In this document: piece after piece, positions 9,104 to 50,286 of the stretch
Layout: every line of letters begins with the position of its first letter
How positions within the stretch are numbered: position 1 is the stretch's first letter
Assembly: GCF_018320785.1 (NCBI RefSeq)
Contig: NC_054886.1
Location: forward strand, 29,151,732 to 29,215,731
Direction of reading: 5' to 3'
Source of the DNA: Cheilinus undulatus
Taxonomy: Eukaryota > Chordata > Actinopteri > Labriformes > Labridae
DNA length: 64,000 bases
Program-made: the position numbers and the translations under genes
The notes under the pieces: generated by a model
Seen by the model: only the letters and a program-made list of their open reading frames with translations
Told to the model about the DNA's origin: nothing
Databases searched by the model: none

Positions 9104-10073
9104 CAGTGATACTCAACGCGTGGCTCTGGAGCCACATGTGGCTCTTTTGTGATGATTTGCGGCTCTTTTATGTCTTACTTTGAGATAGATTCCCATTTTT
9201 GCCACTTCTTTTTGCCACTTTTATCATACTTTTTGCAATTTTTGGCCCCTTTTAATTTTTTCCCTTTCTTGCCACTTTTCGCCCATTTAAACTGCATTTT
9301 GCAATTAAATGCCACCTATTTCCCATTTTGCCACTCTTTGATACGTTTTGCCCATTTTCCCACATTTTTTCTGATTTTCACTCTTTTCTTGCCATGGTTC
9401 TTGTCATTTTTAACCCATTTTTGCCACCTGTAGCTCTTTTTTTTTTTTTACCTCATCTCAACCATTTTGGCAACTTTCTGCCCATTTTTGACACTTTCAC
9501 TCTGCTTTTTTGCATTATTTTGCCCCTTTTTGACTATTCTTGCAACTTCTCGCCCATTTAAGCTGCCTTTTGCTGTTCAATTCCACTTATTTCTCAATTT
9601 TTCACCTTTCTTTCTGATTTTGGCCCATTTGAGTCACTTTTTACTTATTTTTTGTCTCGTTTTTGCCACTTTTGGACCATTTTTGCTACCTGAAACTCAT
9701 TTTTTGACACTTCTCACCCATTTTTGGCAACTTTCTGCCCATTTTTGCCACTTTTCCTTCAGTGTTTTTCCACTTTTTGCCGATTTTCCCACCTTTTCTA
9801 CTGATTTTTGCCCATTTTTCCCACCTTTTTTCAAATTTTTGCAACTTTGACAAATTTTTTGCCACCTTGAACTTATTTTTTGGTCACTTCTCACCCATTT
9901 TTGCCATATTCTCCCCCTTTTTCACCACTTTTTTTCCAGTATTTTCTGCTTTTTGACCACTTTTGCAACCTTTAACTAAGTTTAAACTGCCACTTTTCAC
10001 CACTCAGATTGTGGCTCCTGCAAATGTATTTTTTAACAATTTGGCTCTGGTTGAGCAGGGTTGAGTATCACTA
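9104..10073. mobile_element. hAT-like non-autonomous element with internal TTTTGCCAC array (copy 1)
   Basis: Left end CAGTGATACTCAACG and right end GTTGAGTATCACTA are inverted repeats typical of fish hAT elements; both ends also carry a GGCTCTGG / CCAGAGCC block. The middle (about 9190-9990) is a degenerate tandem array of TTTTTGCCACTTTTCACCCA-type units, all pyrimidine-rich on the plus strand. No clear 8-bp target duplication survives at this copy. It ends a few bases before the likely first exon of ankrd46. Phe-rich open frames inside are by-products of the T-rich array. Confidence 0.75.
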
Positions 10074-10079
10074 ACAAAC

Positions 10080-10244
10080 TCAAAGGAAGTCGTTTGAATT
10101 GTCAGTAGATGGCGACAGATTCCTAAATATTACAACAGCCAACCGACGAAGAAGACGCATCAAAACAACAACACTGCTAGCACCCTTAGCTCAGAAGGAA
10201 AGCGACTGTTACTGTTTTTCTTCTGATTTTGGACCCTTAAACAG
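10080..10244 (+). other. ankrd46: Probable non-coding first exon of ankrd46
   Basis: Moderately GC-richer block (TAGATGGCGACAG, then CGACGAAGAAGACGC) ending in a strong donor, ACAG/GTGAGC at 10244/10245, with no ATG-led frame of note. The coding part starts in the exon at 13629. The transcription start cannot be placed exactly; a YY1-like ATGGCGAC lies at about 10109. Alternatively it is the first exon of an unrelated transcript. Confidence 0.5.
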
Positions 10245-10749
10245 GTGAGCAGTATAACAAGCAACCAACCAAGCATCTAAAATGTGATTATGTATCATGT
10301 GCATGTGTCTACGTCGGTCAATTTATGTATTAAATTTAATAGGTTTTGTGAAACGCTAGCTTGAGGGCTAACTATGCTCCGCTAGCCTGTTAGCTTAAGC
10401 AGCATCAGCATCACTTCCAAACGTTTTCAGTCTTGATTATTTGAAGAAATCGATGCGTGCAAAACTGAATAAAAATTCTTCATAAAGGCCATTTATTGAG
10501 TTGTAGTTAAACGTGAGTGTCTTGTGTTCACTGTAAAGTGGTAATGGGTCCATGTAACGGTGTAGCTAAACGTATCTAGCTGACAGACACGCTAAACTCC
10601 TATTTTCCAATCTAAAACAGTTATTTATGCAACACTAATGTGGTCAAACAGTGATTTATTAAGGCTGTTTTATAACTAGGTGAAGGAATTAATGATCTTC
10701 TAGCTTGATTTTGCACTACTTTTAGGCCCAGAGGTTGCAATAAACATTG

Positions 10750-10990
10750 GCTGTGTCCGAAACCACACACTCATTCCCTACTCCCTACTCCCTATATCCT
10801 CTATAGTGGACTTTATAGTGGACTCAACTGCAAAACACAAAAATGATTTCGGACACTACTCCGGCCGCGGGCAGTGACGTCATCGCCGTCTCACAATTAA
10901 AACGTTTAGCAACAACGGCTCGTACATTTCCATGACAACGGCTGAGGATCGAAATTTACGGTAGAATTCCACTGAAAACTGACACTGAAC
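10750..10990. repeat. Interspersed repeat fragment in ankrd46 intron 1
   Basis: GGCTGTGTCCGAAACC followed by repeated CCCTACTCCCTA and TATAGTGGAC resembles a common fish short transposon end whose body contains a TATAGTG series. It carries a perfect CRE-like TGACGTCA at 10875. I cannot place the right end. Confidence 0.4.
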
Positions 10991-11605
10991 GAAACGTATT
11001 TTCATAAAAAATAAATGTGCTAGTAGGTAAAAACGTTTGCGTCTTGAATGGCAAAATTATATACATTTTTGTGTGTATTATCACTTATTTTTGCATAAAG
11101 ATGAAGGCCTCATGTCTTGTAATTCGTGTCTTGTAAAATCATAGGGGGAAATAGTTACTCCGTTTTGAATCCTTAACATGTTTTTGGTATTCAAAGCTCT
11201 TTTGGTATCACAACAGCTAAAGTAAAAATCCTAAGATCTCAAAATTACACAATTTCCTGCTTTTGCTATCAATAAAGGCAGGGCAATACCTGGAAGATTT
11301 CTGAATTGCAAAAATATGTTGTTGTTTTTCACTGGCAGCTTTCAGAAAGATTAGAAATATGTCTTAAACACTTTTTGATACCACTTATCATTAAAGTAAT
11401 AATAGGGACTGTATCTCATGGCACCATATAGTATTGAAGTATTTGCTTTTTTTGTTAGGAACATGAAGTGTCTCTTGTGCAAAGAGTTTTGGGTTGGGCA
11501 GATCTGAGAGAGGAGCCATGAAGTAGACAGTCAAGTAGCTTTATGTTTGGGACTTCATTCAAACTATTCAGTGTTTACAATGCTTCTTGAGTGTGTTCCC
11601 TAGCC

Positions 11606-12250
11606 CAGTGGTTTTCAAACTTTTTTCACCCAAGGCACACCCAAGGTTAAGCCAAAATCCATATTTATATCACTACAAAATAGACTAATTTATCAGTCAA
11701 GGTGGCCCATAAGGGGGGATAAAGGGGAGAGGTTTCTGGGGCCCAGCCAACTGGGGGTGGCTAAAGGTGGCTGAAACGTGGCAAAAATTGTTTAAAAGTG
11801 ATGGGAAAAAAACATGGCAAATTGTGCAACAAGTGGCAAGACAAAGTCAAAAATGGGTAAGAAATGGCATAAGGGGCCAAAAAATGGGTTTAAAGTGGCA
11901 AAAACATGTTGAAAGTGTCAAAAAGGTGGTAAAATGGGTTTAAAGTGTCCGTAAAGGGTTCAAATGTTATAAAAAGGTGGTAAAAAAGGGTTTAAAGTGA
12001 TGAAAAAATTGGCAAAACATGTCCAATTGAAAGCAAAAGTAGGCAAAAACTGACAGAAAGGTAGCAAAAATCGGTTAAATGTAGTAAAAAGTTCAAATAA
12101 AGTTGCCAAAATGGGTCAAAAGTATTTGAAAAAGTTGCAAAATTTCAAAAAGCAGCAAAAATCTTTTAACTTGTCATAATAAGTGGCAAAATGGGTAAAA
12201 AAATGGTTGACTTGGTTAAAAGTAGGATGAAATAATAATTTCAACACCAG
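11606..12250. mobile_element. Truncated hAT-like element with AAAAGTGGCAAAAATGGG array
   Basis: Begins with CAGTGGTTTTCAAAC, a hAT-type end, then AAGGCACACCCAAGG. From about 11760 the interior is a degenerate tandem array of AAAAGTGGCAAAAATGGG units, the complement strand of the array in the elements at 9104, 14379 and 48682. The right end is missing. The reverse complement of the same end (TTTGAAAACCACTG) is found at 52768-52781. Confidence 0.65.
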
Positions 12251-12422
12251 TTCCAACTCAGTAATAGCTTGCCAAATGAGGTAACTATTAGCTAGGATGC
12301 TAGCACCAATGCTACTGATCCAACACATACACTGATTTTATATCTGCCAATACCAATATGATGGCAATGATTTTGTGCCTCCCTGTACAATATGTCTGCT
12401 GAAACCATGGCTGGTTAAAATT

Positions 12423-12896
12423 AAGGCTGGGCAATTAATCAGAAATTAGTTGAAATCACAATATGGCCTGCTGCAATTTTCACATAAGGTGCAATATTTC
12501 TTTAACTTGAAATTTCTGTCAAATACCAGTTTAAACTTTTTGCAGCAGCAGAGTAGTTATGCATTACAGATCATGCAATCACCCATAGGCAATTTTTTTA
12601 GAATAGTCTACAAAAATCCCACTTTTCTGTATGTTTTTCTTATTAAATATGAGAATGACATGAAAATTATAACTCCCTTCAATACTTCAATTCTTATCAA
12701 ATTTGCAATACGAGTCAAATCATTTTTTAAAAATTGATCAGCTCTCGTGTTATCTAACATTGTGTTTGTTATAATATGGATTGATTTATTGACTGTGTCT
12801 GTTGGGGGGAAAAAAACATAATGTAAGGAACTTAAGAAATCACATTACAATTGCAATACACAACTAAATCACAACTAGATTATTTTCCCAAATTAT
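12423..12896. mobile_element. hAT-like non-autonomous element (GGCTGGGCAATTAATC family)
   Basis: Left end TAAGGCTGGGCAATTAATC, right end TTATTCAGTCCTA; between them the text AATATGGCC..GCAATTTTCA matches the family seen at 55860-56742. Flanks GTTAAAAT (left) and ATTAAAAT (right) agree at seven of eight positions, as expected for an old hAT target duplication. Boundaries are good to a few bases. Confidence 0.6.
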
Positions 12897-12899
12897 TCA

Positions 12900-13540
12900 G
12901 TCCTAATTAAAATACAATAGTGAATGAGAACAAAGAGCTTCAGGTCAGGCGTAAGAGCATGTGCCCCAACGTGGTTGCCCTGGGGGCCTGGTCTGACCCA
13001 CAGGGCCCCCAGTATGCTGTGAGCTGGATCAGGTTTGAGAAGGTGTGCCAGGTGCCCATGAACACCTGATGCGCTCATTGACAGGTCTTAGCACTGATAT
13101 CAAGGCAGCCACTCAGCTCACAAACACCAGTGTGATGTCCATTGGCATGCTGGAGCGGTTATAGGTGTATCCACCCATACTAGTCTTGCCAGAGCCGGGG
13201 GGCCTCACATCAGAAAGGCTGCAACGACCATCCCAAGCCAAGCAAGCCCCCTCAACATCACAGGATGCAAGAGTCATCATGAAGAAAAGTTCCAGGCGCC
13301 AACTCAGCCTCAGATAAACAGTTGACAACACCTTAGCACCGCCATCAACGTTCAACCTACCTGATCAGTGTTTGCTGTGCTGGGATTTCCTCTTTGTCTG
13401 GCAACAAAGGTCCCTGGGACTTTGTCCCGCCACCTTCATGTTACACGCAGCTGGTCCAACAGGTCTTTTATGTGGACACAGACAGACATTAGGTGGAGAA
13501 GAAACTATATGTAACAGAAGTCAAAGGTTCTGATAACACT
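12900..13540. other. Unclassified sequence in ankrd46 intron 1
   Basis: GC-richer than its surroundings, with short open frames on the minus strand (12893-13078, 13113-13355). It looks like a decayed repeat body, but I could not recognise a family or a conserved motif. Confidence 0.3.
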
Positions 13541-13660
13541 TTTTCAATTTAACAACCACAAAGAAAAACTTAATGCCAATAATTTACATTAAATGTATTA
13601 ACAGACATATGCCCTGTCTTCATTGCAGGTACGCTGGAATTTTCTGATACCCACTCGGAC

Positions 13661-16600
13661 ATGTCCTATGTCTTCATTAACGACTCATCGCAGACCAACG
13701 TGCCTCTGCTGCAGGCCTGCATAGATGGAGACCTGCCGTTTGCCAAGAGGCTCCTGGAGACCGGATGTGACCCCAACATACGGGACAACAGGGGCCGCAC
13801 TGGTCTGCATCTAGCCGCTGCTAGAGGGAATGTGGATATATGTCGCCTGTTGCACAAGTTCGGGGCCGATCTGCTAGCGACGGATTATCAAGGAAACACG
13901 GCGCTGCATCTGTGTGGTCATGTGGATACTATACAGTTCCTGGTGTCCAATGGACTCAAGATTGATATCTGGTAATTATAAGCTTCAAGTCATGCTTCTA
14001 GAAATACATTTATCTCGCCTTTCCATACTCAGCCTCATATTTCACTATTTTTTATTTTTATCCATTTGTAAAGTTGTTATCTTTCATGTATTTTCTGAGT
14101 GTTTGGAATGGTTTCCTTCATATGTTTTCTTTGCACTGTACATGAGTGTTTCGTTTGTATATGTATTAGGAAGATGGTTTTTACACTGGAAAATCTATCT
14201 AATATAATATTTATTTGTCTATTTCAGCGGTTTTCAAAGTGTGAGCTGGGCCTCCTCTGGGGGGCGCCACAGAACTTCAGGAGAGGCACGGAACCATAAA
14301 CCAGACAAAAAAATAGTGATTTGCTTTGCTAACTTCTGCTGTGCATAGAGCAAAATGATTAGAATAGTTACTTTAAGGCAGTGATATTCAACGTGTGATT
14401 ATTAGTGGCTCTTTGATGTCTTCATTTTAGATGTTATTCCCCAGAAAACGTTAAAAAGGGAAAAATTTTTGCCCCTTTATACAATTTTTTGACACTTTTC
14501 ATTCATTTAAGCATCCTTTTGTCATTAAATACCACTTTTTTCCTACGTTTTGCCCATTTTTGCCACTTTTTTCCAATTTTTGCCCTTTTTCACCATTTTT
14601 TTTATTTTTGCCATTTTTCACCAATTGAAGCATCCTTTTGTCATTAAATACCACTTTTTTCCACGTTTTGCCGAATTTTGCCACTTCTTTTTGCCACTTT
14701 TTTCAATTTTTGCAATTTTTTAACCTTTTTTTGCCACATTTTGTCCATTTAAGCATCCTTTTGTCACTAAATACCAGGGGTTTTTTTTACTTTTTGCCCA
14801 TTTTTGCCACTTCTTTCCAATTTTTGCCCTTTGTCACTGTTTCCTTTGCCATTTTTTGCCCATTTAAGCATCCTTTTGTCATTAAATACCACTTTTTTCC
14901 TACTTTTCCTACTTTTTGCCCATTTTTGCCACTTCTTTTTGCCACTTTTTTCAATTTTTGCAATTTTTTAACCTTTTTTTGCCACATTTTGTCCATTTAA
15001 GCATCCTTTTGTCACTAAATACCAGGGTTTTTTTTTTTACTTTTTGCCCATTTTTGCCACTTCTTTCCAATTTTTGCCCTTTTTCACTGTTTCCTTTGCT
15101 ATTTTTTGCCCATTTAAGCATCCTTTTGTCATTAAATACCACTTTTTTCCTACTTTTTGCCCATTTTTGCCACTCTTGACTGCTTATTTTTTTTCCACCT
15201 GTTACTCATTTTTTGTCACTTCTCACCCATCTTTTTTTCACTTTTTATCCCCATTTTTTCCCTTTTTTCCCCATTTTTTTGCTGCTTCTTGACCATTTTG
15301 CCATCTTTAACTTATTTTTATTGCTACTTTAGGCTGTTTTTGCCACTTTTCACCACTTAGATTGTGGCTCTTGTAAAGGTATTTTTTTCAACGGTTTGGC
15401 TCTTTGGTTGAGTAACACTGCTTTAAGGATAATCAGAGCAGAATAATCAGTTAGTATTGGCAATAAATTCATTACTGAAACCAAATAACTGATTACCTGT
15501 TAAAGATGTTTAAGAACATTTGCAAACCAAAATATCAAAGATATAAAAATGTTAAAAATATTTAAAATTAGACATAAATGTTTGAAAATATGGTTAAGTT
15601 CTTTTTAAATCTAAATCTGTGGGTGGGGGTCCACCGAATGAATAATTTTCTCTTAGAGGAGGCTCACTCTCACACACTTTGAAAACCCCTGGTCTATTTG
15701 ATAGACTGCATTTTGTAGTGGTGCCGTAAGTGTGTTGCATTAGTTGCCTGCCATAAGAGGTGCAATGCTATGTTGCTTTGTCATCGTCAAGTGCATTGTC
15801 ACATATTTCAACATACTCAGCCTTTAAATGAGCACCTATTGTCAGCAGCTTTTTAAATGGGACCTGTCTTTTGTGTCTTCAATTTCATTTTAAATGTTGT
15901 TCTTTCCTCTTAAGTAGTTACAACCCCTGATATTTCCTCTGTCATTCCGTAATCCTGACAGCTCTGTGTGTTTGTGTTGTCTCATGTTACAGTAACCACA
16001 ATGGATCGACCCCGCTGGTACTGGCAAAGAGACGCGGCGTCAACAAGGACGCCATTCGTCTGCTGGAAGGACTGGAGGAGCAGGAAGTGAAAGGCTTCAA
16101 CAGAGGAGCGCACTCCAAGCTGGAGACCATGCAGATGGCCGACAGTGAGAGGTGAGAATGCGTAGCACTTAAAAAGACTGCAGCAAGGAGATGAAAGTGT
16201 TGATAATGGTGATTTATGATGGACTAGTGAGCTTAATTTGAGGATAAATTCTATCAATCCAGACTTTTCAAGTCTAGCCACAAATTCTCTGTTGGATTGA
16301 GGACTGGGTTTGGACGGGTCACTCCAGAACATTCATCTTGTTATCTTTAAACCGTTTCTGTGTAGCTTTCGCTGTATGCTTCGCCTCATTGTCTTGCTGG
16401 AAAATAAGGTCGTTTTCACACCTGATAGTCCGGGGGACTCGGTCTGTTTTGGAACGGAAATTGCAACATTGTTGCACTGTCCTATGGTGTGGTTCACACT
16501 GGTTTTAGTCAAAGGGACCAAACCCTCTGAACACCTACAACCTCTGCCCGTTAGGGGCGCTGTCGTCACAAACAAACGGTGACCAAGAAGAGAAGAAGGC

Positions 16601-18115
16601 GTAGAAGAAGACAAAATCGGAAATCCATCTCCTTCCGCCGGTCTTTTATTCCACATAAACAATGAAAAAACACTGAATTATGCCATCTTGCGGTTTCTGC
16701 TTTTGCATTGGGGCATTACAAGCAGCCAGCGAGGTGGTGAGCTGTCCAGCATGTCGTTCTTTAAATGATACAAATAAATCCGCACCGACTACGACGTGTT
16801 GCTATGGCTACACAGATGCCAAGCAAGGCACCGCCATGTTTTTAAGTGTATTAAATCACTTGTAAATCCGCATGTCATTACACTTTATGCCACTTACTGC
16901 CTTTGGTTCACAAGTTGGTCCGCTTTGCTTTCACACCTCAAACGAGCCACACCAGGGTTTGTTTGGAGGCAGACCGAGACCCCCTGTTTTCAAGCAGACC
17001 AGAATCCGCTTGTTTGGTCCGCACAAGAGTTCGTGTGAGCTTTCAAACCACTCCAAACGGACCGGACTATCCAGGAAAAAGGACCAGAGTTTGTTTAAAG
17101 CTGACCAAACAGCTCTCTTGTGAATGCGCCCTAAATCTTTGTCCTTTACAAGCCTTTAAGGGCTGGCTGCTGAGAAGCATCCCCACAGCATGATGCTGCC
17201 ACCACTCACAGTGGGGATGGTGTGTTCGTGGTCATCAGACCAAAGAACTTCCTTCCACTTGATCATGGGGTCTCCCACATGCCTTTTGGTGAACTCTAGT
17301 CCAGATTTAATCTGCGTTTTCTTCAACAGTGGCTTTCTCTTTGCCACACTAAAGCTTTGACTGGTGAAGAACCCGGCCACCAGTTATTGTCTGCAGTCTC
17401 TCCCAGCTTGTAACTCCTTCAGAGTGGTCATAGGTGTTTTGGTGGCCTCTCTCACTAGTCTCCTTCTTGCACGCTCACTCAGTTTGACAGGACTGGCTCA
17501 TCTAGGTAGATTTGAGCCTTGGAAATGTTTCTGACTTACACTTTTCGGTAACCGTTTCTCTGAGTTGCTTGGAGTGTTCTTGTGTCTTCATGGTGCAATG
17601 GTAGCCAGGAATACTGATTAACCAGTGAGTGGACGTTCCAGACACAGGTGTCTTTAAACAAATATAAAATTTAAGATTATTTTCAACTGTATTATATGTG
17701 TTACAGGTCACATTGTAGGTGGAAAATAGTCTTTGCCTGGGGCCTCCCAATTGCTAGAACAGCCCCTGTGATTGTTGTATGGAAACATTTTCAGAGCTCA
17801 TCTACAGAAGCAGAATTATGGGATTTTTAATCAATCACAGTAACTCTTAAAAGAAGGGAAGAAGTTGACCGTTTTCTTTTTTTTTTTGTCTGTCTCAGTG
17901 CGATGGAGAGCCACTCCTTACTCAACCCAAACCTCCAGAGCAGCGAGGGCGTCCTGTCCAGCTTCAGGACCACCTGGCAGGAGTTCGTGGAGGACCTTGG
18001 CTTCTGGAGGGTCCTTCTCCTGTTGGTGGTCATCGCCCTGCTGTCTCTGGGCATCGCGTACTACGTCAGCGGGGTCCTGCCTTTCTCCACCAGCCAGCTG
18101 GAGCTCGTGCACTGA
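13661..18115 (+). CDS. ankrd46: Ankyrin repeat domain-containing protein 46
   Basis: Complete 228-residue coding sequence in three coding exons: 13661-13971, 15993-16151, 17899-18115 (stop TGA). The exon containing the start opens at 13629. Junction codons read DIC and DSESAMES. The N-terminus MSYVFINDSSQTNVPLLQAC matches mammalian ANKRD46 almost exactly. Three to four ankyrin repeats span about residues 12-120 (GRTGLHLAAARGNVDICRLL, GNTALHLCGHVDT, GSTPLVLAKRRG). A single hydrophobic span near residues 193-217 (VLLLLVVIALLSLGIAYYVS) anchors the protein close to the C-terminus, leaving the tail ending LELVH. Length matches the family. The cellular role is poorly known; it is thought to be a small scaffold at membranes. 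Introns of about 2.0 and 1.7 kb are largely transposon. Confidence 0.96.
14225..15691. mobile_element. hAT-like element (outer), intact 8-bp target duplications
   Basis: Left end CAGCGGTTTTCAAAGTGTG, right end CACACTTTGAAAACCCCTG: inverted repeats of hAT type. It is flanked by perfect 8-bp direct repeats GTCTATTT at 14217-14224 and 15692-15699. It lies in ankrd46 intron 2 and is itself split by a second hAT-like element (14379-15420). Without that insert it is about 420 bp, a non-autonomous element. Confidence 0.88.
14379..15420. mobile_element. hAT-like element (inner) with TTTTGCCAC array (copy 2), nested
   Basis: Left end CAGTGATATTCAACG, right end GAGTAACACTG, flanked by perfect 8-bp duplications CTTTAAGG (14371-14378 and 15421-15428). 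The body is a tandem array on two scales: short TTTTTGCCACTTTT units, and a larger unit marked by ATTTAAGCATCCTTTTGTCA repeated near 14506, 14626, 14750, 14865, 14996 and 15115 (steps about 115-130 bp). No coding capacity. It is inserted in the element 14225-15691. Confidence 0.88.
16200..17720 (-). mobile_element. Tc1-like transposon remnant, interrupted
   Basis: Minus-strand transposase text is readable: LEFTKRHVGDPMIKWKEVLW then GGSIMLWGCFSAASP (17156-17320), the part around the second catalytic Asp of Tc1 transposases. The sequence around 17560-17650 is the reverse complement of 34925-35015, so it belongs to the same family as 34830-35645. It is split by the Harbinger-like insert 16408-17131. 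The outer ends are approximate and the element is dead. Confidence 0.75.
16408..17131. mobile_element. Non-autonomous PIF/Harbinger-like element inside a Tc1-like element
   Basis: 724 bp. Left end GGTCGTTTTCACACC and the reverse complement of the right end GGGCGCATTCACAAG are related inverted repeats; the insert is bracketed by TAA at 16405-16407 and 17132-17134, the 3-bp TWA target preferred by Harbinger elements. Removing it restores continuous Tc1-like text (CTTGCTGGAAAATAAATCTT). No transposase is recognisable inside. Confidence 0.75.
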
Positions 18116-18950
18116 GGGAGAGTGGCGAGGATAAAGCAAGCATTAACAAGTGAACTTCTGCTTTCAGCTGTTCATACAGACATCAACATTTTTGCCCAGT
18201 TCTTGTTCTTTTCTTTGTCATCCAGACAGGAAAATGTGTCGTTGGTGAAAATGTAAAAGGAGAACAAAAGTCAGTTTCTAAATTAGATAAAACATTTTAA
18301 AAGGCATTAATCTTCTGTAACATATCCCATTAAGAATGATAAACACATAAAGCTGCTCTAATGTCAGTGGGAGAATATAACGCTAATGTTTTGTTAAATG
18401 CCTCCTTTATTTTCTGTTACATGCTGTGTATTGCCAATGTTTTGTATCTTTAAATTTCTTTTAAGTCTTGTTATTTATCAGACATGTTCTGTATTAATTT
18501 TCCTGCGTATTGTTATATTATGTTGAACAAAAATCTGCTTTTCTTGTGTAATGAATCTCTTATTCCGACTGGAAACAGAGTTGTCATGTTGGCTGAAAGT
18601 TGGCTCTCACTTTGTATCGTCTGTTTGGAAAAGCACCTCGACTGTGTGCCTTTTTTAGAGAGAAACACACAGCAGCTCATCAAGACATTCCCGCCAGAAG
18701 CATGAAGCTTTACTGCGTAGAAATCTACCCTGTAGTTGTAAGCATCGCATACTGTCGGCACAGTGAACTGTAGGATTACGGCGGCAGATTATAACTCTTT
18801 TTGTTGTTTATTTTATCTTTATGTCCTTGTAAACCATTAAGTTTGTATTTGTTGTAGGTTTTCCACTGTTGATTTTCTCTGTACATTAACACATTTGAAG
18901 TAAATCTTAATTTAATGTGGAAAATGAATAAAATTGTGTGTATCTATGAG
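18116..18950 (+). other. ankrd46: 3' UTR of ankrd46
   Basis: AT-rich sequence after the stop codon, without repeats I recognise, running to the polyadenylation signal AATAAA at 18927-18932 that is followed by TTGTGTGT. The length is plausible for this gene. Confidence 0.6.
18927..18932 (+). terminator. Polyadenylation signal of ankrd46
   Basis: AATAAA with a GT-rich element (TTGTGTGTATC) immediately downstream; the best-placed signal after the ankrd46 stop. Confidence 0.6.
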
Positions 18951-20594: not shown

Positions 20595-20601
20595 TATAAA
20601 G
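20595..20601 (+). promoter_or_regulatory. TATA-like box upstream of the first Ig-receptor gene
   Basis: TATAAAG lies 57 bp before the ATG at 20652, giving a 5' UTR of about 25-30 bases. The preceding 150 bp are rich in CpG and ACGTC motifs (CTACGTCG, AGACGTCT). Confidence 0.4.
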
Positions 20602-33390: not shown

Positions 33391-33427
33391 TCGGTTTCTT
33401 GAGTTTAATAATTATTTGAAATGGCAT

Positions 33428-36419: not shown

Positions 36420-37060
36420 TATGAGAGTAAGGTTATTATGAGAATAGTACTAGTGGTTAATTAATATTACGCCAAAATTATAAGATCAAAATTTAAAATT
36501 ATGAGTTATAGAGAGGAATGATGAGATAATAGGTCATGATCATGATATAAAAAGTACTTATAATGGGTAAAACGTTGAAACTGTGAAATCCGTGAAGTCA
36601 TAATAAGATTAGTCTGAATAAAGAAGTAAAATCTGACAAGGGAAAAGATGTGTAAAGTAACTGAAAAGTTACTGACTTGTTTAAATTGATCTTTTTATCA
36701 CATAGATTTACTATATCTCACAGTTTTGACTTTTCAGTCTAATAATCTTGACAATTTACTGTAATCCATAATTTCAACTATTTATTTGGTAATTTAGTCT
36801 TTTTATCTCATGATTATGACTTACTATAGCTCATAAATTTGACTTTCTAATCTCATAATTCTGTAACTGATTTCATAATTTAGATATTTTAAATCTCATA
36901 TTAAGACTTTTCATCACTATTATACCTATGTATAGCTAATAATTCCAACTTTTTATCTCATTATTTCAACTTTTTACCTTAAATTATCAACAGTTCATCT
37001 CACAATTCTGTCTTATTATTTCAGCTCTTTGTCTTAAACATGACCTACTATTTTATATTT
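36420..37060. repeat. Diverged AT-rich flank of the minisatellite
   Basis: Degenerate versions of the ATTTTGACTTTTTATCTCAT unit, increasingly diverged away from the homogeneous core to the right. It reads as the older edge of the same array. Confidence 0.5.
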
Positions 37061-37720
37061 TTGACTTTTTATCTAATAGTTTTGACTTTCTATCTTATAA
37101 TTATGACTTTTTATCTAATAGTTTTGACTTTTATCTTATAATTATGACTTTTTATCTAATAGTTTTGACTTTCTATCTTATAGTTACGACTGTTTATCTA
37201 ATAGTTTTGACTTTTATCTTATAATTATGACTTTTTATCTAATAGTTTTGACTTTTATCTTATAATTATGACTTTTTATCTAATAGTTTTGACTTTCTAT
37301 CTTATAGTTACGACTGTTTATCTAATAGTTTTGACTTTTATCTTATAATTATGACTTTTTATCTAATAGTTTTGACTTTTATCTTATAATTATGACTTTT
37401 TATCTAATAGTTTTGACTTTCTATCTTATAGTTACGACTTTTTATCTAATAGTTTTGACTTTTATCTTATAATTATGACTTTTTATCTAATAGTTTTGAC
37501 TTTTATCTTATAATTATGACTTTTTATCTAATAGTTTAGACTTTTTGTCCCATAATTGTGCCTTTTTATCTTATAATTATAACTTTTTATCTAATAGTTT
37601 TGACTTTTTATCTTATAATTATAACTTTTTATCTAATAGTTTTGACTTTTTGTCCCATAATTATGCCTTTTTATCTTATAATTATGACTTTTTATCAAAT
37701 AGTTTTGACGTTTTATCCCT
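37060..37720. repeat. Minisatellite with ~41-bp unit and 124-bp higher-order unit
   Basis: Basic unit: TTTTATCTAATAGTTTTGAC plus TTTTATCTTATAATTATGAC. A variant with GACTTTCTATCTTATAGTTA starts at 37167, 37291 and 37415, exactly 124 bp apart, and the three monomers between are nearly identical, showing recent amplification of a three-monomer block. The array lies between the two Ig-receptor genes. Confidence 0.85.
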
Positions 37721-38499
37721 AATCTCCTAATTTTTATCTTAAAATTTGGAATCAATAATTCATTTAAAGTCAGAGTAGCTTCACTGAGTCATCATAGTTT
37801 CACGTGTCACATGCAATGATGTGTAATCTCTCCTAACATCCTTAACATTTGACCTCTTTATGATCACATGAGGCAACATATTCTGAATGATGAATATTCA
37901 CAGTTCTGATGTAAACCTCAGAATTCTGACTATTTTTCTCTGGATTCTGACTTTTTCCAAGAATCTGAAAAGAAGTAGTGTCTGTTAATGATTCTCCAGT
38001 GGTTCTATCTTTTGGGTACCATTTGTCACACACCCATAAATGACCAAACCTCTCTTTATGCCTGGGCAGCGCCCTCTCTGATAAGATGAGTTTGCTGTTA
38101 AAGTTCAAGAACCAGTGAGCTTTTGAAGGATGGGAGTCTTTGAAAGGAAAAACCTTAGAATGTCTTTGTTTTTGATTCTGTGTGTAAATTGTATTATTTT
38201 AATGTTTTATTATTCCGAGTATGTCCCTGTATTTTCTGTTTTTAATTGTTCTGAATCGTTTTATGTAAATTTATGATTATGCCAATTTTGCTCCTTTACT
38301 GTTTCCTTATTTCTTTTCATCTCATAACAAATTTTCCTTTTCACTGATGAAGTTCGCATAATCATTGATCTGCCCAAAGGTCTGTTTCTGAACATTAAGT
38401 GATGTAGTCTATTCTTGGTTTAAGACTGTAAAGGGGGAATGGCGTTTAATCAGAATAACGAACGCGATATGTTTCACGTATTTAGGGGATTTTTTCCCC

Positions 38500-41600: not shown

Positions 41601-41773
41601 ACAAGATCTGTGATCTGTGGAAAAGCATCAAAAACAAGAGGTCAGTCTGAGTTTCAACAAAGGCAGGAAATGCAGTTTCTCTTTATTAGTGGACGGTAAT
41701 TTTTTGGGGACTTTTTTGACTAATTTATCTTTTTCTCCACCTTCCAGGTCGTAGTTGTCTAGAACCTTGCTGA
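38631..41773 (+). CDS. Butyrophilin/B7-like membrane protein with a single V domain
   Basis: Five exons give 222 residues: 38631-38712, 40085-40447, 40664-40747, 41527-41640, 41748-41773. All junctions are GT-AG and all internal introns are phase 1. The start at 38631 gives a clean signal peptide (SPLIVVLFLLFTVAPVQG); an in-frame ATG at 38553 would add 26 residues. The V domain shows DVILPCHV, VEWSK, HLYRDRRE and DEGRYRCF, close to the neighbouring gene. A Thr/Pro stalk (PLTAPTEMPPQLTTVYTP) leads to a membrane span (IPAGVFIIFLMVIGTLVT) and a tail of about 20 residues with Cys at the end (SCLEPC). Two Asn-x-Ser/Thr sites lie in the V domain (GNIS, TNIT). MOG-like in architecture. Ligand unknown. 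Confidence 0.8.
40980..41370. mobile_element. Tc1/mariner-like transposon fragment
   Basis: TGGCAGCAACACATCTAAAA, ACTGGGTATAAAAGGAGCAT and GTTCACCAGTCTGTGAGAAA match a common fish element that codes for a helix-turn-helix protein; ATCTACAGTTCATAATAGCA lies in that coding part. It breaks off near 41370 inside the intron before the membrane-span exon. Confidence 0.6.
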
Positions 41774-44060
41774 CTGCTAATCAGTGCTGACAGAGATGAC
41801 GGCACTACCCACCATGAAAGTGCCATCACATTTTTGTATTGGTGTGTTAGCTGTTTGCTGAGAACTACGATATAAAGTGTGCACTGAAACAGTCCATAAT
41901 ACACAGAAGGTATGGATTTAATGTACATGGAAACTAAGGGAATATTTCAGTTCTTCCTGCCTCGGCCAACACAAACTTGCCATGACATCCACACATAAAT
42001 GGTTTGTGCTGAACATAGTTCATTGACCAAAACTGCATGTGCCATTAACATGGTCCAGAATCACTTCTGGTCTCTGTTGGGAGAAAGCAATATGTAATAC
42101 TACATTTAAATGGTTGTTTTTGTCTGAATTGTTACAGGAGGTTTTGGTTTTAATGTTAAATGATGACTGAATATTGTGTTAAGACATGCTGCAGTGTAGA
42201 TCACCAGCTAAAACCAAATGCAGGATGGCTGTAACGACACATCTGTGGGAAAATGTATGACTGACATGAATGTATATGGAGAATGATGCTTCAACACAAG
42301 ATATGGTAGTCGTGCAGATTGCAGACCAAAGACAGCAAAGGCCTGATTACCTGATGGTTCTAAAAATTACCTTGACAACTTATCTTGTGGTGTACAGTGT
42401 GTTTAAAAGACGTTTTAAGTTTTACTTTAGTTAGTAGCTTTTTTAGTAGCTTCTTTTTGATGCGAGACACATCTGCACCCTGTTATCCACCAAGGTAGGC
42501 CTTTTTCACATGGAGACAAAAGTGATTTATTTCTGTTTAATTTTGAAGTTTTCTGTACAAAATGGCATCATATAAGAAATGTCTGTGTAACCGTGAAAGA
42601 ATTGAAAAGGACTGAAAACGCGTAGCTCATATGCCAGGCATGTAAGTGGCGCTGTAACACTGGCATGGAAATGCACCAAAAACAGAGAAGATGGTTATGG
42701 AGCAAGCGATTGCTTACCCCAAACTTTCTCCTGGCTGCCCTTGTGGTTGCACTCCCTGGTGGCTGTAATATGTGGCGTTGCCTGTTTTCCATGAGGATTA
42801 TTGCTTACGGTGGTTGTAGGGGAGAAGACTCAAACACAGTCATGCAATCTGCCATTATTATTGTGGATCGCTGGGCTCGCGCATGTGGGTTAAGTGGCCA
42901 TCATTTCAGGAAAGACTAGCTTGGTTGTACACACAGAGTCTGGCGTACACAGATTTGTTTATTCTGGGACCCAGTTTAAAAAAATAGAGTTCTTTGTGGA
43001 TAAAATGATGAAATACTTTTGCGGATACTCCTTAACTCGTCTCCATGTAGACGACCCCTCAGAGTTCCTGCCTGTGACTTCAGGTGCTCTAAGGGACACA
43101 CAGTGCTTATTCTTCATCACTATACATGGCCTTGCTCTGAGGTTGACTCTCTGCTTTGTTCTTGTCAGAACCATACCACACATTTTCAACAGTTCCTGCA
43201 GCTCTGTCATACTGCAAAATATTGAAAACTCCAAAGTTTGACTTATGTTGTGTGTAATAGAGAATTTTTAAAGTGTTAAATTTAACTCTCTGACAGTTTG
43301 ATTGACAATGTTAATGATTCTGTGTCTTTGACTTTATGATAGAGGTGTGACTTTACTTGAATAACCTGGTTTGAGATCTATTTCCTTATTCTTGCCAATA
43401 AGGAAGAACATGTTTTACTGTACGACTCATCAGTAGCTCCTCAGTACTGGAGTAAACTATGAATAATTTATAGACCAATATGTTTACCCAAGAAAACTAA
43501 CTAAAGTAATTGTACTTTTGCCACCTGTTATTTTAGTGATATTTTTGTTGTATTATATTTTTAAAGTGTTATTTTCTACTTTAAACAATGTCTATCTCTG
43601 TGCTTTGAGCAGGGTTCACTAACATTAAATGGTGGAGATGTTCATATTGTTGCATATTTGATGTGATTTTAGTTTGTTTAGTATTAATTCATTATCCATA
43701 AATGTGTTTGTTTGTACCTCAAGTTCTGCACTGTACATGATTATTGCACTTCTTTGTTTTTTTGTGGGTTGAATTATTCATCAGTTTTTTTGTGTATTAG
43801 TTATTTAAGTTTCAAGTCTACCTGATGTGGCTTCATGATGTATTATTTCTATAATATCCTGTTATTTATTAATTTATTTTTCCATGTCCTTATTTACACG
43901 CGAGATATCTGAAATCTTTGTAAAGTCTCTGCACTGAATTTAACTAGATGAAATAGTAAACTGTTTTTGAATAAGATGTGTGTTTGTTAAGTTGAATGGT
44001 GTGTGCTGTTATAAAGTGATTAAATGTTCATATTTAAATGATTACACCGTGCATGCGTCA
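41774..44060 (+). other. 3' UTR / flank of the second Ig-receptor gene
   Basis: Non-coding, AT-rich. It includes the inverted-repeat element at 42495-43060. The last plausible polyadenylation signal is ATTAAA at 44019-44024. The rest holds nothing I recognise. Confidence 0.35.
42495..43060. mobile_element. Non-autonomous DNA transposon (TCACATGGAGAC ends)
   Basis: GGCCTTTTTCACATGGAGAC at the left and, inverted, GGTCGTCTACATGGAGACGA at the right. Interior phrases such as GTAAGTGGCGCTGTAACACT and GTACACACAGAGTCTGGCGT are seen in a widespread fish repeat. Non-coding; superfamily not determined. Confidence 0.5.
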
Positions 44061-45300
44061 TATTTTACACCAGCAGTTAATCTGTGCTGAAGTTCAGCGT
44101 TGACTCCCTCAACAATATAATATCTGACGTTATCTTGTTTCATATTAATCTTTGTGTTTGTGTTTTAGTGTCTCGAGTGAGCAGGACATTCATCTTCAAA
44201 TCACTCATTAGGTCCAGCTCTGACTTTTTCAAAAGTTATTCATGACTTTATTATATTTGTTTGTGTTTTCATCATGAAGTTTCGGTCTGCTTGTTTGTTT
44301 TCATAAGCACAAACAATTATGTAGTAGGGAAGCACCTACTTAAAAACCTGTTTACAAGAGTGAGACTGGTTATTAAACCACTGAAAATACTAAGTGTTTA
44401 CAAGAGTGTATGAGTCATATTACATGTGATTACTATTTGCCTGGAAGAAAGTCCCCTAGGGTTGGAAATAAACAAATGCAGCATGTGCAGTAGTCAGATG
44501 AGTGTCTAATGTCTAATTTTGATCTGGTTTCTATCAGGAAGAATTAGAAAACGTGAGCCTTTATGATGGTAATTTTTTAATCCAACGGTAACAAAGTCTG
44601 GCAGTTAGAAAGTAGTTTTCTCTTTTTTAAAATGGCAAAAACACTCGCATTTTAGAAGTGTTGTTCAAAAGAGAAAGAACTGAATATACATAACACATGC
44701 CAAAATCACCGGATAAGCCCAGTAAACATCTGATTTAAAGATAAAAGGAAAAAGGAAAGCCTGATTTGCTCATACATACAGAAATAGCAAAACAACATTC
44801 ACTTGTGAAGTGCATTTGAGTCAGTGATGTTCCTAAGTAAGTAATCTCAAACTTCAGAGACTTAAATGATCTTAAATGCCTGACAGCGTTGGCTCACTTT
44901 GCCCCATAATTACCATTTTTGTAACATAATGCCTACTTTAGCAGTTTAACTAAATCTTTATTAAAGTGATTACATGGTTTTACACATTTGTAGTTCAGCA
45001 TGTTTATGATGTTTTTAAACCTTGATGGATTTGCTCAATCTTAAAGTAATGGTTGCACACTTAAAGAAGGACTCTTAGTGTGTCTTTTAGCTGTAAATGT
45101 ACACAAACAGAAAAGCAAACTGTTGTGATCACGCTTCTGCACAGCTTCCTACAACCGCTCAGAGCAACAGTGTTTTGATACAGAGCAACAGTGTGTTGAT
45201 ACAGAGCAAGTCACGGCAGAAGGGCTCCCTCAGTAGCATACTTCATCTTGTGGTGAAACAGGTGCTTTCTGCCTGTGGTTTCACATTTGGAGCACAATAA
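44061..45300. other. Intergenic, nothing recognised
   Basis: AT-rich sequence. The only structure seen is a 21-bp unit (AGAGCAACAGTGTTTTGATA + C) present twice and partly a third time at about 45162-45210. Confidence 0.4.
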
Positions 45301-45301
45301 C

Positions 45302-45405
45302 TACTTTTTTTTTTAAGATTTATTTTTGCCTTTATTTAATAGGACAGTGGATAGAGTTGGAAACAGGGAAGAGAGTGGGGAGAAACATGCAGGAAATGGT
45401 GACAT
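45302..45405. repeat. Fish short interspersed repeat (GACAGTGGATAGAGT type)
   Basis: TTTATTTAATAGGACAGTGG, ATAGAGTTGGAAACAGGGAA and GGGGAGAAACATGCAGGAAA form the conserved part of a frequent fish repeat. The tRNA-like end expected in full copies is not present. Confidence 0.55.
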
Positions 45406-45796
45406 ATTCTATGTGCATGAGTAGGAACATTATTATTGCGATAATGCTTTTAAAATTGCTGAGATTTCCTCTGAAAAGGAAGAATGTGGACAGTAAACTA
45501 GCTGGCTTTACTTATGTTCTTGACAAGCAAACATTGCTTGACACTGTTGCATTACTAAATTTCCTTATTTATAACATCTATCGTGGTGATTTTGAAAATT
45601 ACTGACTTGTTTTGTTTTAACATTTCAGACGAAGAAAGAAGAAGCCTGTGTGATACTCCTGAGTAGGAAAACATGTTCAGATGTTTCAAGGACAATGTCT
45701 ATGTTGTAATTTAGCTTTATTAACTTAAATCACGTAGGAAACTCTGTCTTGTGAAGTATAAAATATCCAAATGATCAATCGATCTACTGTATGTAC

Positions 45797-45960
45797 AGTG
45801 CTTAACAAATTTATTAGACCACCACACAAAGTAAGGTTTATGCCACAGCTGCCCTAAATTAACAGCATTGGTAATTACCAAAATCATTTTTATGTTTCTG
45901 CAATACACCAGCCTTCAAAGAGAAGACACAAGATTAAACACAAAGTATGAAGACAAAGTG
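45797..45960. mobile_element. Tc1-like transposon end fragment
   Basis: TACAGTGCTTAACAAATTTA followed by TTAGACCACCAC is the terminal repeat of a fish Tc1-type family, with TA at the outside. Sequence identity fades after about 45830 and the opposite end is not seen. Confidence 0.4.
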
Positions 45961-46006
45961 GCATAGAAACAGGAAAATAGAAGTAAACACTGCTCATGCT
46001 GGAGGT

Positions 46007-46584
46007 GTGGATGATCAAGCACAGGAGTAAAGAGGACTGTTGTAGAGTTGGAAGGTTGTGGGTTTGAGTCTTGGTACATTTTTAAGTCCAGTCCCCAAAA
46101 GCAGAGAGCAGATCCTCTGAGAAACATAAACAGGTGTGTGTCTCAGTGGATTAGTGGAAAAGTCAACTGACTGTGAACCAGGAGGTCACAGGTTCAAATC
46201 TTACCATGGGTTCATCTATTTTAAAAGTCTGAGTCCAAATCTAGACTTCAGGAGACCTGGACAGGAGTTGGCCTTTCAAATCTAACCAATGTCTTTAAGT
46301 TTTCAAGATTTGAGTCCAAGTAAAGAAGGAAAAGCCCCTCTAAGGCTCTGCTGCATGTCTGGCTCTGTAGCCTAAAGAGATAGTAGACTGACTCAGAGTC
46401 TGGAGGTTCCAGGTTCAACTCCCATCTTGGTCTCAGTGAATTTTAAAGCCACATCCTGAACAAAGAGGATAAATGCGCCAGGAGAAGAGGTGGTAGTGTG
46501 AAAGGTATGGCGGCAGTAGCACAGAGGACTGGACTAGACCAGTTCTGCAGGGGATGCTGGGGTTCAAACCCCACTGTGGCCGGT
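46007..46584 (+). repeat. Cluster of four tRNA-like segments
   Basis: Four blocks each show an A-box-like and a B-box-like RNA polymerase III promoter in tRNA spacing: about 46007-46078 (B box GGGTTTGAGTCTTGG), 46133-46207 (TCTCAGTGGATTAGTGG, AGGTTCAAATCTTAC), 46355-46430 (AGGTTCAACTCCCATCTTGG) and 46504-46584 (GTAGCACAGAGG, GGGTTCAAACCCC). They are separated by 125-225 bp of partly similar spacer. None folds into a convincing complete tRNA by eye, so I call them tRNA-derived repeats, not tRNA genes. Confidence 0.55.
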
Positions 46585-46599
46585 ACCTGGATCAAGGCA

Positions 46600-46645
46600 T
46601 GCCTGATGGAGGAGGGGGGACGCGGCGCGGCGCCCCCCTGGGGAG
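46600..46645. repeat. GC-rich hairpin
   Basis: GGGGGGACGCGGCGC and GCGCCCCCC are complementary around a very short loop, an outlier of almost pure G+C in AT-rich surroundings. It follows the fourth tRNA-like block directly. Confidence 0.45.
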
Positions 46646-46791
46646 CCGTCAGAGATGTAAGTAGGGGGTTATGCAACAAAAACGCAGACACAGCAGGAGT
46701 TTTACAGGATGGAGTCTTTATTTGCATGCATGGATGATCACTCATCATCTCCTCCGCTGTATAAACAGGAAATACTTACCCGCCTCCTCCA

Positions 46792-46980
46792 GGGTCAGGG
46801 TACCAAAGGATCATTTATTTTGAAAGGGCATTTGAACGTACGGAAATCAAGAAAATGGACAACTTCACTCGTTTTTCCATTCTGGACACAAATGGAAAAA
46901 TGAGTGAAGTTGTCCGTTTTCTTGATTACCGAACAGTCAAATGCTCTTTCAAAATAAATGATACTTTGGTACCCTGACCC
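46792..46980. mobile_element. 189-bp palindromic element inside the kinesin exon
   Basis: The whole element is one hairpin: arms of about 90 bp (left GGGTCAGGGTACCAAAG..., right ...CTTTGGTACCCTGACCC), around 90% complementary, with a loop near CTGGACACA. It is flanked by TCCA at 46788-46791 and 46981-46984. Removing the element and one TCCA restores the kinesin reading GLEEAG and a strong donor GTAAGTA, which confirms the target duplication. No known superfamily fits confidently. Confidence 0.85.
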
Positions 46981-47392
46981 TCCAGGCCCTTCAGGTCCTC
47001 TCTGGCCTGCTCCCTCTGCTCATTCAGCAGCCTGCAAACAAAAACCACATTAACTAACATTCAGCATAAATAAACGTACGGATGAGTCCTTTACTCACAG
47101 GAGTTTCTGCAGCTTGGCGTCCTTCTCCTGCTCTTCATTCTTCAGTCTGTCGTAGTCTGACATCAGCCTCTCCTGCTCCAGCAGCAGACCCTGGTTCAGA
47201 CTGAGAGGAGACACTCGCTAAGCTCTGATTGGACGCTTTTTAACGGCAGAGTACCTGTCTAGAGAAATGTCAACAAACCACATCAACATATATTCATGTT
47301 GTTCATCTGGTTTCTGGAAATTTCTCCAAACACTTATTTGGCTCCAAAAATGCTACAAGGCAGAACATTTCTGAAATGATGGACCTTTACAT

Positions 47393-48251
47393 CAGTGGGT
47401 CCCAACCTTTTTTCTTTGGGGTCCCTCTACTCTAAACACTCTAAAGCCCCCCAGGACAATCTCTGAGAAATTAAACATCATTTTTAATTGTTTTATTGAC
47501 TAAATCCCAGGATAACAGGCCTGCATAAACCAGTTCTTCATAAATATCTGCATATAAACTTTCCATCATTACAATGGCATTAAGAGCCACCATAAGAATA
47601 CAAAAATGAGAAGGTTCAGTCAATTTTTAAGTAAAATCTCATAAATTTACAATTAAACAAGTCATAAATTTACCAGAAAAAGAAAACTGGACATTTATGT
47701 CAACTAAAAGGTGGAATTTTTTGACATTATAAAATCCAAAAGAGCCGTGGAAAAAGAAAATGACAAGAGAAGAAGCTGTTTTCCTTCCATAAGTCCTACA
47801 GTCGATCGCCTAATCAGGAGATTTTTCTTAGTAGGATTGATCAGTGAGGAAATGATCCAAGAATGATCACATGATCATTATTCCCCAGACTCTGAAGAGA
47901 CATTTCTGTTCACTGTTTCCAGTTTGGATCCTTGTAAATTCACAAATTTAGAATTTTTTTAATTCTGACATTACAAACTTGACATTTTAAAGTGTATCAT
48001 GTAAAAATTTAGGACTTTTGAACTAGAAAATTCTGAGTTCAGGTTCTTGAAAAAATACGACTTTGTCATCTTAAAAATGTACTTTTTAATGTCACCTTTT
48101 TCCAAGAAATGTACAGATCCTCTTTATTTTGTTGGACCTTTTAGAGGGCTCTAATACTTCCTCTTACATCACATTTTCAATCATGACTCTATAAATTAAA
48201 GTTCATTACAGACACCCCCCCCTTGGGGTGCCTGGACTCCAGGTAGGGAAC
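47393..48251. mobile_element. Probable hAT-like non-autonomous element
   Basis: Left end CAGTGGGTCCCAACCTTTTT then TTTGGGGTCCC; right end CCCCCTTGGGGTGCC then AGGTAGGGAAC, an inverted version lacking the last few bases. Flanks CTTTACAT (47385-47392) and CTTCACAT (48252-48259) agree at seven of eight positions. The interior is AT-rich with loose repeats of CATAAATTTAC. Confidence 0.6.
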
Positions 48252-48681
48252 CTTCACATGACAACAGTGTAACAGGTGTGTGTAGACTTTTAGAGCCAGT
48301 GTAAAGCCAGACTACAGTCGTATGCAGCTAAAAGTTCCTGACTCAGTAAAGAGGAGTGGTACGAGGATTTTACATCCTTCCTCATGAGGATCACACACGG
48401 TAGACAGTCGTAATGACGTCACTACTTTGGTTTGAAAAAACAATAATAAACAAACTTTAGGATCATTTAAACCAGCATAAAGTGGTTCAATGAGAACCAA
48501 TCAAATCTGTGGAAATATCCCAGATCTAAAAAACATCAAACATGAATGGATTTGTTGATTTTTCTACATCTTCATTCGTCTCTGTGGACTTGGAGTCAAA
48601 ATTTTAGGCCCCGTTTGGACAGTTTTAGACTAAATTCCAGATCCAGTTCCAGTCTTGTCACAAACAGTTATTAGTCTAAAT

Positions 48682-50286
48682 GAGTAAAACTCAACGTATG
48701 GCTTCACTGGAATGGTTTGTGGCTCTATTATGTCTGCATTTTAAATATTTTTCACCATAAAAACTTAAAAAACATTTGACCTCAGGAATGATCTATATCA
48801 AGTAACATTAATCAGTTTGTCTCCACTCTTATACAGGAGGCTTTAATTGTCAACCTTTATTTTTTCTCTTGGTGTTTTCATTACCCTTATTTCTAATTCT
48901 TCTCCCTTTTTTCCTTTTTTTTGCCACTTTTAATCCATTTTTGCTGCTTTAAGCCCATTTGTGCCACTTCCTCTTGCCAATTTTGTAGTTTTTGCCATCT
49001 TCATCCTGTTTCTTGCTATTTGAAATTCTTTCCCCCTTTTGGCAATTTTTTGGCAACTTTTCACCCAATTTAAGCTGCTTTTTGACATTAAATCACACTT
49101 TTTACATTTTTGTCAGTCTTTGCAGAATTTCCCATTTAGTCACTTTTAACCAATAATTTGCCCCATTTTGCCACCTTTTGACTATTTAACAAATTTTCAC
49201 AATTTTTTACCTATTTCTTTGCCGCTTTTTACAATTTCAGTCACTTTTCATCATTTCTTCTAATGCATTTTTGCTACTGTTCATAGTTTTTGCCATTTAA
49301 TGCCTATTTTTCCCCCTAGTCACCAATTTTTTTTGCTGCTTTTGGCCGTTTTAGTTACTTTTCATTCATTTTAGCATCTTTCTGCCATTTTAGTCCCTTT
49401 TCACTATTTTTACCACATTTTTGCTGCTTTCTGACCATTTTGTCATCTGACTTTTTGCCACTTTTCACCCATTTCTTGCCATTTTATTCCATCTTTGCAC
49501 CTTTTAACCATTTTTTGCTGCTTTTGGTCGTTCTTTTCAGTCCTTTTCATTAAAATTTACCGCATTTTTGCCACTTTTTGCAAATTTTAGTCACTTCTTA
49601 CTTTTTACCACATTTTTGCCACTTCTGACTTTTTTATCATCCATAAATCCTTTTTCATATAATTTCTCACCCATTTTTGCTACTTGTTACCCAGTTTTTG
49701 CCATTTTATTCCAATTTTGCACCTTTTTATCATTTTTTGCTGCTTTTGGTCATTTTAATCACTGTTCATTCATTTTTACCACATTTCTGCATCTTTTTGC
49801 CCATTTTAGTCAATTTTCACTGTTTTATATCACATTTTTTGCCACTTTTTGCACATTTTAGTCACTTGTTACTATTTTTAACCATATTTTTGCTGCATCT
49901 GACGTTTTTATCATCTATAACTCCTTTTATTTCATATCACTTCTCACCCATTTTTGCTACTTGTTACCTAGTTTTTACCATTTAATGCCTATTTTTCACC
50001 TTTTTACCAAATCTGATTCCGCTTTTTGGCCATTTTAGTCACTTTTCACTATTTTTTGCATATTTTTTGCTGCTTTCTGACCATTTTTGTTATCTGTAAC
50101 TCATTTTTTTCCATTTTTGACCCAGTTTTTGTCATTTTATTCCAATTTTGAACCTTTTCACCATTTTTTTCTGCTTTTTGACCATTTATGCCTCTTTATT
50201 CCACTTTTCACCACTTAAAATTTGGCTATTGCAAAGGTATTTTTCAACAATGTGGCTCTTTGGTTGAGCAGTTTTCAGTAACACTG
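48682..50286. mobile_element. hAT-like element with TTTTGCCAC array (copy 3)
   Basis: 1605 bp, flanked by perfect 8-bp duplications GTCTAAAT (48674-48681, 50287-50294). Left end GAGTAAAACTCAACG, right end CAGTAACACTG preceded by GGCTCTTTGGTTGAGCAG, as in copies 1 and 2. The body is a long pyrimidine-rich array (TTTTTGCCACTTTT, CCATTTTAGTCACTTTTCA) with no coding meaning. It sits in the intron between the second and third kinesin-relic exons. Confidence 0.85.

Follow-up and report, generated by a model that had tools for sequence, protein, structure and literature searches.

The window analysed here is a 64-kb stretch of the Cheilinus undulatus genome (contig C22, 29151732-29215731). It contains three dispersed copies of a repeat family, hereafter family A, whose ends are those of a hAT DNA transposon and whose body is made of regularly spaced T-tracts. 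The T-rich strand is the plus strand in all three copies. Copy 1 (9104..10073, 970 bp) is a non-autonomous hAT element with a phased T-tract body and the 3' end GTTGAGTATCACTA; it has no clear target site duplication (TSD), the best fit at its edges having 3 mismatches. Copy 2 (14379..15420, 1042 bp) begins with CAGTGATATTCAAC, is flanked by the perfect 8-bp TSD CTTTAAGG at 14371-14378 and 15421-15428, and is nested in another hAT element. Copy 3 (48682..50286, 1605 bp) has diverged ends, GAGTAAAACTCAAC and TTTCAGTAACACTG, between perfect 8-bp copies of the TSD GTCTAAAT at 48674-48681 and 50287-50294. The positions and lengths given for the three copies in a preliminary description of this DNA are thus borne out. 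The same description held that the copies share their ends; these are roughly alike, but of the two ends that it quoted, the 5' one is exact in copy 1 alone and the 3' one in copy 2 alone.

A 97-bp query, the 5' end of copy 1, was searched against the assembly (1.17 Gb in 46 contigs), the best 40 of 1515 first-look candidates were scored, and 39 further family A loci were taken from beyond the window. A query with the 3' end gave 867 first-look candidates, and neither these nor the 1515 are confirmed copies. The window and the sampled loci together have 43 5' ends, 38 of which can be paired with a 3' end. Among these 38 pairs, 26 copies combine a CAGTG-like start with an 8-bp TSD of no more than 2 mismatches, and the TSD is perfect in 11; the fit permitted shifts of 3-4 bp and favoured a central TA. 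These 26 copies are 340-1651 bp long, and their length differs as the body differs, as had been proposed from the window copies. A blind search of 229 kb for exact 8-bp repeats combined with CA..TG and inverted ends, without bias to TA, returned 17 elements of all families, compared with 1 in the reversed strings. A central TA is present in 14 of the 17 TSDs, matching the form nnnTAnnn, a consensus that marks the Buster group of hAT transposons (PMC3517528). The ends of family A form short terminal inverted repeats starting with CAG (CAGTGATACTCAAC and GTTGAGTAACACTG). The 8-bp TSDs with central TA, the CAG..CTG inverted ends and the many copies agree with the earlier view of a hAT-like family; judged by TSD form and ends, family A is a putative Buster-type hAT.

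No open reading frame (ORF) starting with ATG and longer than 112 aa was found in 27 family A copies, and the copies are therefore non-autonomous. With no coding capacity, inverted ends and many copies, family A is a family of miniature inverted-repeat transposable elements (MITEs), or non-autonomous DNA transposons. MITEs are usually a few hundred bp long, and most family A copies are longer. The best-scoring matches, which are not all copies, lie toward the contig ends: 34 of 40 5'-end matches and 35 of 39 placed 3'-end matches are within the outer 40% of their contig, compared with 77 of 147 placed hAT transposase matches (Mann-Whitney p 0.005 for the 5' end and 4e-8 for the 3' end).

We then inspected the element body. 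It had been described as a satellite of the 9-bp unit TTTTGCCAC; instead, the T-tracts recur every 10.3 bp, and in family A Tandem Repeats Finder (TRF) reports largely short, degenerate stretches whose units measure 9-50 bp, along with clear units of ~117 and ~250 bp in copy 2. The period was determined by our own Fourier measure against shuffles, which differs from the published score for periodic A/T clusters (PATCs), in the 25 copies longer than 600 bp. In all 25 the strongest period lies at 9.9-10.7 bp, with a mean of 10.30 bp (standard deviation 0.16), and its power is 8- to 42-fold over the mean shuffle power. Spacings between successive tracts peak at 10, 20-21, 29-31, and 41-43 bp. In 16 background windows of the 64 kb, some of which overlap elements, the highest value in the 9.5-11 bp band is 5.9-fold. 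A power above 30 is found in 84 of 118 windows of family A bodies and in 0 of 780 evaluations of a random control (60 kb at 20 Mb on 20 contigs; maximum 22.1), which samples contig interiors, unlike the distal position of the family. Tracts placed uniformly have a phase coherence R of 0.31, compared with 0.61 observed.

Such spacing is predicted to bend the DNA. In a wedge model, the predicted ratio of end-to-end distance to contour over 210 bp is 0.49, versus 0.87 for dinucleotide shuffles; a second model based on AA/TT steps alone predicts 0.50 versus 0.90. Under both models, each of the 25 copies has a z score below -2. The body thus consists of T-tracts in a highly degenerate array, spaced by about a turn of the helix, and strong curvature is predicted for it. 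Like a PATC, it keeps A/T tracts in helical phase along hundreds of bp.

Phased DNA is also found away from the mapped family A copies. In a small sample of 20 kb at 5 Mb on 8 contigs, phased arrays occur at three of the eight loci, namely a family B element (L071, maximum power 28.9), a family C element (L072, 50.7), and a 1.5-kb A/C-type array whose family is not known (L073, 62.3). Among the strongly phased flank stretches outside mapped family A spans, those in L019 and L026 are further family A copies, that in L034 is an A-type fragment, and those in L035 and L043 belong to family C.

Family C has the ends CAGGGGTTCTCAACC or close to it. Its array resembles that of family A, with a median alignment score of 69 (42-140) versus 37 (up to 71) for reversed sequences over 125 pairs including L073. 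All four C stretches have a period of 10.2-10.45 bp and a predicted curvature z of -7.0 or lower. In the window, an A/C-type array on the minus strand (11606..12230) has an A-tract period of 10.35 bp, is predicted to be curved, and adjoins a segment of ~50 bp (11707-11757) that family C also has. Its part at 11740-12230 was counted among the C stretches, to which it is tied solely by the ~50-bp segment, its outer ends not being C ends.

Family B is represented in the window by a hAT element at 61525..62391 with the ends CATGGGTGTCAAAC and GTTTGACACCTGTG and the TSD ATTTAGGA, the ends of the family resembling CAGGGGTGTCAAAC. Its A-tract array has a period of 20.2 bp and a unit unrelated to that of family A (median A-B score 31 versus 28 reversed, 100 pairs). 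Three of four B stretches have a peak at 20.2-20.55 bp above all 40 shuffles and a predicted curvature z of -3.0 or lower; one of the three, L062, is placed in family B by one end alone. The stretch in L012 exceeds the shuffles neither in period nor in predicted curvature, and a one-turn peak above shuffles is seen in just one of the four. At positions 159-1617, L012 holds a family B element into which a family A element has inserted (928-1562), the two B pieces overlapping by roughly the 8-bp TSD. A B-like tandem array at 36690..37750 in the window repeats at 20.75 and 10.4 bp, with higher-order units of 83 and 124 bp and a predicted curvature z of -7.0. It aligns with B bodies at a median score of 108 versus 30 (4 pairs), and a look for B ends next to it gave none. 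For the earlier suggestion that such a transposon could seed tandem arrays elsewhere in the genome, this array is the relevant observation. What the bodies of families A, B, and C have in common is helical phasing and not any particular sequence.

Outside mapped family A spans, TRF reports 39 arrays with a unit of at least 7 bp, and in 23 of them the unit measures 19-23 bp; these arrays are not independent, because many come from one family or from unmapped family A copies (rows in L019 and L026). Other parts of the window vary. A degenerate 20-bp array at 58830-59830 (about AGAATTCTGAGATTAAAGTC) is not B-like; its 10.0-bp period is above shuffles and its predicted curvature z is -1.5. The stretch at 56100-56480 has neither a period nor predicted curvature above shuffles, and neither of these two stretches was taken as evidence for phasing. 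At 54957-55400, AAAACTAAACT and GACTAAAACTA motifs are repeated with a period of 11 bp. Exon-like sequence lies at 55440-55850, which we take to encode a putative TMEM185-like membrane protein.

Whether the arrays formed before or after insertion can be approached through the order of their parts. Each pair of family A bodies was aligned, and its score was compared with the mean of five rotated controls, a ratio above 1.15 being counted as collinear; the sharing of exact 15-mers was too strict a criterion for collinearity of these bodies. By the rotation test, 145 of 300 pairs exceed 1.15, and 1 of 300 falls below 0.87. As about half of the body pairs are collinear, the array largely existed before dispersal. 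Copy 3, for instance, is collinear with the copy in L040 (396 versus 284 rotated) but not with copy 1 (200 versus 207), and copies 1 and 3 are both phased. Element length shows no correlation with terminal divergence (Spearman rho 0.06, p 0.76, n=27). Neither result supports growth of the array, proposed in the preliminary description, as a general rule. An identical array in every copy, which it had named as evidence to the contrary, did not occur in the sample.

The arrays nevertheless change. In 37 collinear pairs, which share copies so that single indels enter the counts repeatedly, there are 63 indels of 10 bp (41 of 9 bp and 36 of 11 bp) and 22 of 20 bp (18 of 19 bp and 8 of 21 bp). Gain and loss of unit-sized pieces is one process among several. 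The counts do not establish phase-keeping indels as a rule: indels of 1-3 bp dominate, and a periodicity test of 5-60-bp indels gives no preference for 10.3 bp. Internal blocks that are 80-87% alike occur in other family A copies. In L013, the body of the family A copy at 742-2112 contains, twice, a sequence other than T-rich array, probably another repeat; its two copies agree at 90.6% over 138 bp.

In one copy, copy 2, the sequence speaks for change after insertion. The second, ~120-bp level of repetition noticed in it earlier is real, with 94-nt members at a spacing of 115-133 bp. Above this level, two adjacent ~250-bp higher-order units (14656..15153, plus strand) differ by 8 substitutions in 248 aligned bases (3.2%). 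The element in which copy 2 is nested, referred to as D, is a hAT element at 14225..15691 with the ends CAGCGGTTTTCAAA and TTTGAAAACCCCTG and the TSD GTCTATTT. A second locus at C22:35.446 Mb (L077/L079) has the same A insertion in D with the same TSD, CTTTAAGG, and a homologous D flank, and the homology of the two loci stops at the 3' end of D or within ~20 bp past it. Because the nested insertion and the D flank are common to both loci, D and the A copy within it probably moved together. Divergence between the loci is 8.5% in D (23/270) and 10.0% in the 3' part of A (21/210), while the two units of copy 2 are only 3.2% apart; the units therefore became alike after the loci had separated. In a search with the 250-bp unit (best 40 of 2670 candidates scored), the two window units match at 96%, and C22:35446287 comes next at 87%. 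Either late duplication or gene conversion would fit the unit pair, judging from the sequence. Adjacent 250-bp units are present at several other loci with lower identity, so repetition at that level is not new. The sister locus is without its 5' part, and the ancestral array length is therefore not shown there.

Taken together, the results are best accounted for by family A being a non-autonomous, Buster-type hAT family whose phased array was mostly pre-formed, was dispersed by transposition, and was altered later, a reading to which we give a probability of roughly three in four. The element ends would be recognized in trans by a hAT transposase, which would move the gene-free interior. An old, decaying T-tract array would already have been present in the source elements and would be copied along with the element by transposition. 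It would then be altered by slippage, by small indels, by units of ~10 and ~20 bp being added or lost, and by duplication or conversion of longer blocks. Family C carries a related array, and family B an unrelated one of doubled period.

Several points weigh against this account. The autonomous partner was not found: none of 150 PF05699 matches in the genome, taken without their flanks, was linked to family A ends. The family A sample consists of the best 40 of the 1515 candidates matching the 5' end of copy 1. As the rotation control also splits true alignments, the test gives shared order and not its extent. The curvature is a prediction from model parameters. The 250-bp level of copy 2 may be old and homogenized by conversion. 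Phase-breaking indels of 1, 2, and 3 bp number 412, 223, and 139, far more than those of 10 and 20 bp, and a periodicity test on 561 indels of 5-60 bp does not pick out 10.3 bp (R 0.23 at 10.3, 0.33 at 12). Phase coherence is 0.61 versus 0.55 with permuted spacings, with p<0.05 in 5 of 25 copies, and it does not drop with terminal divergence (rho -0.11, n=25). Local spacing accounts for most of the coherence, and long-range phase locking is weak. Apart from these points, a majority consensus of nine collinear copies is no more coherent (R 0.58) than its members, and a scan of periods for total element length in 27 copies gives R 0.42 at 10.2 bp and 0.12 at 10.3 bp.

Within this history, the body may be neutral filler, which we rate slightly above even odds. 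A slippage-prone minisatellite would have arisen in the source elements with a unit that by chance measured 10-21 bp, leaving phasing and curvature as idle by-products. Such an origin is consistent with the local excess of 10- and 20-bp indels, the highly variable body length, and the common small indels, as well as with a coherence that permuted spacings mostly reproduce and that is unlinked to terminal divergence. It sits less easily with the two unrelated array lineages (A/C and B) being both helical, since a chance unit length would need to recur, and with the 19-23-bp units of 23 of 39 other TRF arrays, though several of these are one family.

Alternatively, the shape of the DNA would be selected, the curved body bringing the ends together, placing nucleosomes, or resisting germline silencing like the PATCs of Caenorhabditis elegans, which protect transgenes from such silencing in the worm (PMC7725773). 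Helical periods in the bodies of three hAT families, not all related, point in this direction, and so does the position of the best-scoring family A matches, nearer the chromosome ends than hAT transposase matches; the distal position may, however, reflect recombination or retention. Widely varying body lengths, a total length without clean helical preference, and common phase-breaking indels argue against selection on shape, as do the phasing of family B at two turns and the one B stretch in four that lacks both period and curvature. We regard selected shape as unlikely and lean towards the neutral by-product. Somewhat more doubtful still is the broader proposition that unrelated hAT families were independently filled with phased A-tracts whose shape was selected as a PATC-like module, independent of sequence, aiding mobilization or evading silencing. 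These elements, and host elements bearing them in the way that D bears copy 2, would then have made curved DNA a considerable part of the distal chromosome regions.

Steady satellite growth with time in every copy would agree with the late change in copy 2 and with the 80-87% alike blocks of other copies; it is improbable, given short copies (340 and 421 bp) with ordinary TSDs and the collinearity of about half of the pairs. As a candidate explanation of array length, steady growth with age was rejected on the lack of correlation between length and terminal divergence (rho 0.06, n=27). An artefactual origin of the phasing, whether in base composition or in the tests, can practically be dismissed. 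T-tracts are indeed frequent in T-rich DNA, and the random control sampled chromosome interiors, in which the family is rare. However, dinucleotide shuffling of these bodies removes the predicted curvature, the power at the period is 8- to 42-fold over that of shuffles, and uniform tracts fall well short of the observed coherence (0.31 versus 0.61).

The pre-formed, transposon-borne array bears on an old open question, namely the purpose of the interiors of non-autonomous transposons. In family A, the interior has a measurable physical property that outlasts its sequence and recurs in unrelated families, and is hence directly testable. The D element with A inside, present at two loci, is a usable case for following the change of a tandem array after insertion. 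Families A, B, and C may already be catalogued as repeats, and tandem-repeat transposons are themselves known. By title or abstract opening, the matches listed from the open-licence literature included no report of helically phased transposon bodies in vertebrates, nor one of helical phasing as the trait that transposon bodies share, subscription papers and repeat databases being outside that scope.

DNA transposons carrying tandem arrays are well described (PMC9659126). They include the MITEs Xmix and Xstir of Xenopus laevis, miDNA4 of X. tropicalis, the (GTCY)n MITEs of Lepidoptera, and the pearl elements of bivalves (PMC9659126). Family A is like them in being non-autonomous, in containing a tandem array, and in spreading by transposition and changing afterwards. 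It differs in that those elements have named repeat units (PMC9659126), whereas the unit of family A has decayed while the helical spacing of its T-tracts persists, and does so in more than one family. Mar, a Buster-group hAT MITE of Drosophila, shares with family A the 8-bp nnnTAnnn TSD, the CAG ends, and the absence of coding capacity; Mar has relic full-length copies that include a transposase (PMC3517528), and none were found for family A.

The period of PATCs is about the helical repeat. Their A/T runs are phased near it, as in family A, but PATCs sit in introns and untranslated regions of germline genes (PMC7725773, PMC9071541, PMC6468775), whereas the phased DNA of family A is a transposon body. 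A review describes the PATC signature as largely absent outside Caenorhabditis (PMC6468775); despite this statement, family A would put PATC-like DNA in a vertebrate. The internal eliminated sequences (IESs) of ciliates provide another case in which helical geometry is visible in transposon-derived DNA (PMC9942856). There, it is the total length of the short IESs (<115 bp) that is periodic, at ~10 bp (PMC9942856), whereas in family A it is the sequence of an interior of 0.3-1.65 kb.

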